Source: Acidobacteriota bacterium (lineage in GTDB: Bacteria > Acidobacteriota > Blastocatellia > Pyrinomonadales > Pyrinomonadaceae). From it: a stretch of 64,000 bases of DNA. Numbering within the stretch: the first letter of the stretch is position 1; every line of letters begins with the position of its first letter. The translations under genes and the position numbers were made by a program. Shown piece after piece: positions 20,514 to 22,657 of the stretch. The stretch spans positions 1 through 64,000 of the forward strand of contig JAIVJI010000069.1 of assembly GCA_020200135.1 (NCBI GenBank). Direction: 5' to 3'. Under the pieces are notes generated by a model. It was not told the origin of the DNA, made no database searches, and saw nothing but the letters and a program-made list of their open reading frames with translations.

Positions 20514-20676
20514 CAGGACAGAAACTTGATAGTTCGACTAGAAATCCGTGCTCCCGCCTGCCTATAATCCCGCCGTACCAAATCCCCTTGAACCGAACTC
20601 CCCCGCTAAAACTTTCGGGCCTACGTCCGCGCGAGGACGCGCCCGCCGGCGGCAATCTCATGCAACGGGAGAACTG

Positions 20677-21702
20677 ATGGCGACAAAGTCGAACAAGCAG
20701 GGTGCGAAGAAGGGCGCGGCGAAGTCGGGCGGGAAGGGCGGCGCGGCGAAGAAGGCGGCCAAGTCCCCCCCAGAGTCGGCGGCGAAGTCCGCGGCGGAGA
20801 AGTTGGCCGCGTTGCGCAGGGGGTCCCCGCCGCGCGTGCTTGAGGAGCCGGAGTCGCCGATGCCGGCGCAGCACCTCAAGAAGCCGGGGCTGGAGGCCGA
20901 GCTTAAGCTCAAGCCGCGTTACGAGGCGCCGCATTACCGCGGGTCGAGCAAGCTCAACAACCGCGCGGCGCTCATCACCGGCGGCGACAGCGGCATCGGT
21001 CGCGCGGTGGCCGTGCTGTTCGCGCGCGAGGGCGCGGACGTGGGGCTGGTCTACCTGCCCGTGGAGCAGGTGGACGCCGAGGAGACGCGCGCGGCGGTCG
21101 AGCGCGAGGGGCGGCGCGCGCTGCTCATCCCGGGCGACGTGCGCGACGCGGGGTTCTGCCGCGAGGCCGTCGAGCGCACGGTCGGGGAGTTCGGCAAGCT
21201 CGACATCCTCGTCAACAACGCCGCCTTCCAGCAGCACCAGAAGACGATAGAGGAAGTGTCGGACGAGCAGTTCCACCGGACTTTCAAGACGAACATCTAC
21301 GGCTACTTCTACATGGCGAAGGCCGCGCTCGCGCACATGACCGAGGGCGCGGTTATCATCAACACCGGCTCCATCACGGGGCTCGAGGGGAGCAAGGAGC
21401 TGCTCGACTACTCGGCGACGAAGGGGGCGATTCACGCCTTCACCAAGTCGCTCGCGCAGAACCTCGTCGAGCGGCGCATCCGCGTCAACTGCGTCGCGCC
21501 GGGGCCGGTCTGGACGCCGCTCAACCCGGCGGACAAGGCGGCCAGGGACGTGGCCGAGTTCGGCGCCGACACGCCCTTCAAGCGCCCCGCGCAGCCCGAG
21601 GAGATGGCGCCCGCGTACGTCTTCTTCGCCTCCGAGGCGGATTCGAGCTACATCACGGGCGAGGTACTCACGCTGCTCGGCGGCGACACGACCGCCGGCT
21701 AA
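20677..21702 (+). CDS. SDR family oxidoreductase (general-stress type), Lys/Ala-rich N-terminal tail
   Basis: NNRAALITGGDSGIGRAVAVLFAREGADV...NNAAFQ...YSATKGAIHAFTKSLAQNL; N-term MATKSNKQGAKKGAAKSGGKGGAAKKAAK. Confidence 0.92.
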   Translation: MATKSNKQGAKKGAAKSGGKGGAAKKAAKSPPESAAKSAAEKLAALRRGSPPRVLEEPESPMPAQHLKKPGLEAELKLKPRYEAPHYRGSSKLNNRAALITGGDSGIGRAVAVLFAREGADVGLVYLPVEQVDAEETRAAVEREGRRALLIPGDVRDAGFCREAVERTVGEFGKLDILVNNAAFQQHQKTIEEVSDEQFHRTFKTNIYGYFYMAKAALAHMTEGAVIINTGSITGLEGSKELLDYSATKGAIHAFTKSLAQNLVERRIRVNCVAPGPVWTPLNPADKAARDVAEFGADTPFKRPAQPEEMAPAYVFFASEADSSYITGEVLTLLGGDTTAG

Positions 21703-21734: not shown

Positions 21735-21923
21735 ATGTCAGACAAGGACAGGCAGAAGAAGGACGGCGGGCGCAAGGACAAGAAGAACCAGGCGATGCAC
21801 GAGCGCGAGAACGAGGTCGTGCAGGAGGCGAGCGCGCCGCAGCAGGTGCGCGACGCCTCGAACCTGACCGACACGCAGCCCGGCCCGGCCGACACGCGCG
21901 AGGGCGGCAACGGGGGGCGCTAA
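21735..21923 (+). CDS. Small very hydrophilic protein (hydrophilin-like)
   Basis: 62 aa MSDKDRQKKDGGRKDKKNQAMHERENEVVQEA..., preceded by GGAGGG ribosome-binding-like sequence. Confidence 0.6.
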   Translation: MSDKDRQKKDGGRKDKKNQAMHERENEVVQEASAPQQVRDASNLTDTQPGPADTREGGNGGR

Positions 21924-21948
21924 AACTTCAACAGGGAGGTGAGCGGAG

Positions 21949-22116
21949 ATGCCAGACCCAGTCAGGACGGACGAGAAGAAGTGCGCGCACCAGACCTGCA
22001 CCTGCATGGTCGGGGGCGAGCGCAGGTTTTGCAGCGACTACTGCGAGGACGCGAACGACTCAGACCCCACCTCGGTCTGCACCTGCGACCACCCGGGCTG
22101 CAAGTCGAACCGTTGA
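21949..22116 (+). CDS. Metallothionein-like protein (55 aa)
   Basis: MPDPVRTDEKKCAHQTCTCMVGGERRFCSDYCEDANDSDPTSVCTCDHPGCKSNR; 8 Cys/2 His in SmtA/BmtA-like spacing; GGGAGGTGAG upstream. Below the ORF-track length cutoff. Confidence 0.82.
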   Translation: MPDPVRTDEKKCAHQTCTCMVGGERRFCSDYCEDANDSDPTSVCTCDHPGCKSNR

Positions 22117-22131
22117 CCCGCTGAGACGATA

Positions 22132-22227
22132 AATTAACATGGATGGACAGGATGAACAGGATTAAGAGATTTGAGATTTGAAATCTTTAATTTCTTATCC
22201 CCTTCATCCTGTCCATCCATGTTAATT
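22132..22227. repeat. Family A dispersed palindrome, copy 1
   Basis: AATTAACATGGATGGACAGGATGAACAGGAT ... ATCCTGTCCATCCATGTTAATT. Confidence 0.85.
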
Positions 22228-22330
22228 CATTTCCCCGCCAATCCGGCTCGTCCGTTTGACACGGGCGCGTTGCGTCGTAAAATCACACTTCGCCGGAACG
22301 CCCATCTCAGCCGAAGGAAACTATCGAGCG

Positions 22331-22567
22331 ATGACTTACGTGGTGACAGAGGACTGCGTCGATTGCAAGTACACGGACTGCGCGGCGGTCTGCCCCGTCG
22401 AGGCTTTTCACGAGGAATGCCCCGTCGAGGCCATCTACGCAGACGTGTCGCTCCCCGAGCAGTATGCCGACTGGCTCCCGCTCAACGCCACGGCGCAGGA
22501 CTACCCCATCCTGAGCGGCAAGATACCCGCCCTCTTCGGCCCCACCTGCAAGGGTAAGCCTGAATGA
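22331..22567 (+). CDS. FdxA-type ferredoxin, apparently with an internal deletion
   Basis: [52 protein letters not shown]; the usual DECIDCxxCxP segment is absent. Confidence 0.75.
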
Positions 22568-22657
22568 AAGAGTCTGGAGTCTGAAGTCAAGACAGCACGC
22601 CACTCAGACTTGGTTCATCTCCTGCCCAAGACTCCGGACTTCAGACTCCAGACTCTT
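22568..22657. repeat. Heptad palindrome between convergent genes
   Basis: AAGAGTCTGGAGTCTGAAGTC / GACTTCAGACTCCAGACTCTT perfect 21 bp; units AGTCTGG AGTCTGA. Confidence 0.85.

Follow-up and report, generated by a model that had tools for sequence, protein, structure and literature searches.

A divergent metallothionein-like protein family with a rearranged ligand set in Acidobacteriota

A short open reading frame at positions 21,949 to 22,116 on the forward strand of a 64,000-nucleotide stretch of DNA from an Acidobacteriota bacterium (the window) encodes a 55-residue protein that, judged by its anatomy, appears to be a genuine though divergent metallothionein, even though it fails the formal threshold of the Pfam profile PF02069 (Metallothio_Pro). 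It belongs to an acidobacterial family that is very likely homologous to the SmtA-type metallothioneins, and this subfamily is mostly missed by standard profiles. The alignments indicate that its ligand set has been rearranged rather than eroded: a histidine is swapped in for the second cysteine, the final C-x-C is lost, and an extra cysteine lies two residues before the last C-x-H-x-x-C.

The frame, starting with ATG, translates as MPDPVRTDEKKCAHQTCTCMVGGERRFCSDYCEDANDSDPTSVCTCDHPGCKSNR followed by a stop codon. The protein has eight cysteines (residues 12, 17, 19, 28, 32, 44, 46 and 51) and two histidines (14 and 48), arranged as C[AG]HxxCxC-x8-[YF]CSxxC-x11-CxCxHxxC, and its assignment as metallothionein-like draws on translation, profiles, conservation and dN/dS. 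The coordinates, length and ligand count given in the original prediction are exactly those found by translation, and the layout that it described, including the CAHQTC segment and the ending C-K-S, is correct as well; a detail absent from it is that, with a C-terminal block of C-x-C-x-H-x-x-C, C44 is gained two residues upstream and the cysteine of the terminal C-x-C is lost. A Shine-Dalgarno-like sequence, AGGGAGGTGAG, is found 5′ of the frame, where the Shine-Dalgarno-like stretch AGGGAGGTGAGCGGAG (21,933 to 21,948, forward strand) abuts the ATG, and comparable purine-rich stretches precede the genes of most relatives. GC3 is 0.89, against 0.91 in the adjoining gene for an SDR family oxidoreductase. 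A relative with 91% identity is known from the same genus. Purifying selection acts on the frame in comparison with two genus-mates, with dN/dS of about 0.16 for one (G131; dN 0.047, dS 0.296) and about 0.17 for the other (G130; dN 0.170, dS 0.996). The metallothionein motif occurs once in the window, and a looser version of it is absent from 6.4 Mb of simulated order-1 Markov DNA matched in composition; together with the purifying selection, this means that the frame is not a product of chance.

How secure is the relationship to metallothioneins? Taken singly, the window protein scores weakly on PF02069 (12.8 bits, E = 0.14; cut-off 33 bits), with an alignment spanning positions 3 to 50 of the 51 in the profile, and evidence from the family is therefore needed. 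PF02069 matches at E ≤ 1 were obtained for 11 of 30 relatives, the best at 2.7e-4. When family profiles were aligned by hhalign with an SmtA-type set comprising SmtA (in a sequence identical to that of PDB 1jjd), PflQ2 MT and four plasmid-borne metallothioneins, the phylum profile gave a colinear match with a probability of 95.8, E = 8e-9 and a score of 41.6, and the class profile gave E = 4e-7. The controls scored at most 17.8 with shuffled columns and 12.0 with reversed profiles; with the C and H columns fixed and the rest shuffled the maximum was 23.4, and thus the match is not due to cysteine spacing alone. A bridge is provided by a protein of another genome of the phylum (L086 in G249), which reaches 35.8 bits on PF02069 and is the sole protein above the cut-off among the sampled Acidobacteriota (1 of 396 genomes). 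It has the layout of the window protein (CAHQGCRC...YCSEYC...CTCGHRDC) and is identical to SmtA at 46% and to the window protein at 38% of positions, each over 50 residues; it differs from the latter in having a long loop of the SmtA type and in passing the cut-off. With this bridge, the family is very likely homologous to metallothioneins. The metallothionein-like reading therefore survives, as the family profile scores far above its shuffled controls and the bridge protein passes the cut-off; the profile check proposed with that reading came out weak for the single protein.

The two top-ranking matches of a profile search against the whole PDB were metallothioneins, 1jjd and 6gv7, both weak (E = 0.07 and 0.14, respectively). 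Searching PDB sequences with the window protein as the sole query returned nothing relevant, and a PDB search with the class profile alone returned no metallothionein. The AlphaFold model of the window protein is of moderate quality (pLDDT 69, pTM 0.46); Foldseek found no PDB match for it, a result that is uninformative for a metal-dependent fold of 55 residues but lends the reading no support.

With the window protein alone as the query, homologues were found in 79 of the 162 genomes of the class, and a 30-sequence profile detected them in 63 of the 396 sampled Acidobacteriota genomes. Nearly all are acidic, free-standing and about 50 residues long, and the proteins share the order C[AG]HxxCxC, loop, [YF]CSxxC, spacer and C-x-C-x-H-x-x-C. 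Conservation of the ligands was counted in two alignments, of 30 class sequences and 25 phylum-wide sequences. All eight cysteines are invariant in the phylum-wide alignment (25/25) and seven of them in the class alignment, where C12 is absent from one sequence; C17, C19, C28, C32, C44, C46 and C51 thus vary in neither. H48 is present in 25 of 25 phylum-wide and 29 of 30 class sequences, the one exception having cysteine, and H14 in all 30 class sequences and 22 of the 25 phylum-wide ones, the other three having Met or Asn. The histidine in place of the second cysteine and the missing final C-x-C had been taken as changes in this gene, but both alignments mark them as fixed traits of the family across the phylum; since the histidine at position 14 is fixed in the phylum-wide subfamily, it is not an oddity of one genome. 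Recent degeneration as the source of either feature is ruled out by the same fixation.

The same genome carries a second, more distant copy (L046; G000:C76:21111-21239), with CKNSPC instead of CAHxxC and hence Asn at the position of H14. Two unrelated membrane-anchored proteins (L033 and L034), with a C-terminal CxxCGMFI...YCSxxCA and weak PF02069 matches, apparently represent a separate family of short zinc-binding proteins. NCBIfam holds no model that matches the metallothionein-like protein or its family, and no member of the acidobacterial subfamily was found in plasmid and phage collections. No paper dealing with acidobacterial metallothioneins turned up in a literature search, which covered few subscription papers.

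The likeness to SmtA, a zinc-buffering protein of the cyanobacterium Synechococcus elongatus (PDB 1jjd), extends colinearly over KCA-x-x-x-C-x-C ... YCSxxC ... C-x-H-x-x-C. C9, C14, C16, C32, C36, C47, H49 and C52 of SmtA correspond to C12, C17, C19, C28, C32, C46, H48 and C51 of the window protein, and C11 to H14; H40 and the final C54 of SmtA have no partner, C44 is extra in the window protein, and its CxC-to-CSxxC loop is 7-8 residues shorter. The nine cysteines with a second, C-terminal CxC that are typical of the SmtA type contrast with eight cysteines and no final C-x-C. The zinc-finger site of SmtA (site A) is presumably made up of C9, C14, C32 and C36, and the counterparts of this Cys4 set (C12, C17, C28 and C32) are conserved in the family apart from the one loss of C12. 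SmtA forms Zn4Cys9His2 (PMC10119931), and its zinc-finger fold forms once site A is filled (PMC10612145). The metallothioneins of Pseudomonas (PflQ2 MT, PDB 6grv/6gv6, and PmtA) share the same cysteine frame and likewise have no metal-responsive regulator adjoining, although PflQ2 MT has a cysteine at the position of H14, a final CxC and a disordered tail, all three of which are absent from the acidobacterial family. PflQ2 MT binds three zinc ions and aids long-term survival of starvation; the Pseudomonas protein has no metal regulator, is induced in stationary phase only and is dispensable for metal resistance (PMC7387436). PmtA has been linked to oxidative stress (PMC11237414).

In the genus, the order of genes is SDR (PRK06701 subfamily), a 62-residue charged protein, the metallothionein-like gene and then an FdxA-type ferredoxin, the first three standing close together, 32 and 25 nt apart. 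The SDR family oxidoreductase of the window (20,548 to 21,702, forward strand) matches the NCBIfam PRK06701 subfamily at 477.7 bits (cut-off 413); its true start probably lies 3′ of the listed GTG, and the transcription unit probably begins with this gene. A sigma-70-like promoter candidate, TAGAAA-18-TATAAT, lies before it (20,539 to 20,568, forward strand) as a match to the consensus only, and from this site to the metallothionein-like gene no terminator-like site was found. The 62-residue Lys/Asp-rich hydrophilic frame (21,735 to 21,923, forward strand), probably co-transcribed with the metallothionein-like gene, has no Pfam or NCBIfam match and is conserved, in the same order, in genus-mates only. 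After the stop codon of the metallothionein-like gene comes an inverted repeat (22,129 to 22,230) with 34-nt arms of 91% complementarity, possibly a transcript end or a REP-like element. It and a second intergenic inverted repeat, REP-like with 21-nt arms of 100% complementarity (22,568 to 22,657), flank the ferredoxin gene (22,334 to 22,567, forward strand). The ferredoxin itself is without about 21-27 internal residues that are kept in G130 and G131, including cluster-ligand Cys; a 14-nt direct repeat, TGCCCCGTCGAGGC, stands at the gap site (22,391 and 22,418), and the gap may reflect a true deletion or stem from misassembly. Rfam detected no element 5′ or 3′ of the metallothionein-like gene.

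In other genera the neighbours differ from this order. A convergent Transgly_assoc (PF04226) gene lies directly 3′ in 8 of 30 loci, which belong to only two genera and whose genomes carry just 1-3 Transgly_assoc copies each; other loci have YggT-like (named by eye), Dps-like ferritin and hemerythrin-domain genes as neighbours, and a co-directional HD-domain-like gene occurs in five loci of one genus. Such stress-type neighbours hint at, rather than prove, a role in stress or slow growth.

On balance, we are inclined to regard the window protein as a small protein of the SmtA kind that binds zinc in the cytosol and would act as a stress-phase or constitutive buffer holding about three zinc ions, as the Pseudomonas metallothioneins do. 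C12, C17, C28 and C32 would hold one structural zinc within a fold resembling a treble clef; a further one or two would be held by C19, C44, C46, H48 and C51, joined in most members by H14. The set of eight cysteines and two histidines suggests a capacity of about Zn3, as in PflQ2 MT, or perhaps Cd3, per molecule, compared with Zn4 in SmtA, and the metal preference may be altered. The protein would be made within a general-stress or slow-growth programme rather than switched on by metal, and may buffer zinc and perhaps also thiol-reactive stress. Homology to SmtA, near-complete conservation of the ligands, purifying selection and the lack of an ArsR/SmtB neighbour argue for a zinc buffer. The stress part draws on the PRK06701-subfamily SDR gene in the genus, the Transgly_assoc loci and the Pseudomonas precedent; against it, the Transgly_assoc genes are convergent rather than in an operon with the family gene, and amount to eight cases in two genera.

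Could the protein instead be a structural "SmtA-like zinc finger" with two zinc ions and a partner protein or a nucleic acid as its target, rather than a metal-cluster buffer? Site 1 would then be C12/C17/C28/C32 and site 2 the knuckle C44-x-C46-x-H48-x-x-C51, and indeed the C-terminal CxCxHxxC has four ligands of its own at nearly invariant spacing. The notion of SmtA-like zinc fingers is established (Blindauer 2002, as cited in PMC10612145), and some members graze treble-clef profiles, namely DUF2116 (three members, best E = 8e-4) and zf-CGNR (E = 0.007). However, separate Cys4 and Cys3His sites leave the invariant C19 without a role, and the mostly free-standing, acidic members have no conserved basic surface and no fused domain, so that we consider this a minority reading with roughly a quarter of the weight. 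A metallothionein for metal detoxification, induced by Zn, Cd or Cu like SmtA, is rather improbable. Homology to SmtA is in its favor, as are a CDF-type efflux candidate and an arsenic gene set, each at a distance of about 3 kb in a different genome (both named by eye, not by profile), but the presence of CDF and ArsR genes near the family gene is not conserved. SmtA has the SmtB gene nearby and two of the SmtA-type plasmid genes compared have an annotated ArsR/SmtB regulator adjoining, whereas no such gene stands alongside the window gene: among the matches listed, ArsR/SmtB (PF01022) has none on the window contig and, across 30 genomes, none within 3 kb of a family gene; the closest listed match (G074) stands about 3.2 kb from it. 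That the frame is no gene, or a decaying one, as its shortness and weak Pfam score might suggest, is ruled out by conservation, with the family present in dozens of genomes, a low dN/dS, a ribosome-binding site and all ligands intact.

Acidobacteriota may, as we tentatively propose, possess a metallothionein class of their own, with ligands re-wired by the histidine for the second cysteine and by a C-terminal CxCxHxxC replacing CxHxxCxC; it would be a regulator-free zinc buffer linked to growth phase or stress, would comprise almost every metallothionein of the phylum, and would be invisible to the standard profile. PF02069 exceeds its cut-off in 1 of the 396 sampled genomes as against 63 of 396 with the new family profile, and annotation thus undercounts metallothioneins in this abundant soil phylum. 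The fixed exchange of cysteine for histidine, together with the moved cysteine, provides a natural test of how ligands affect the capacity for Zn and Cd, a question already studied in the metallothioneins of Pseudomonas.
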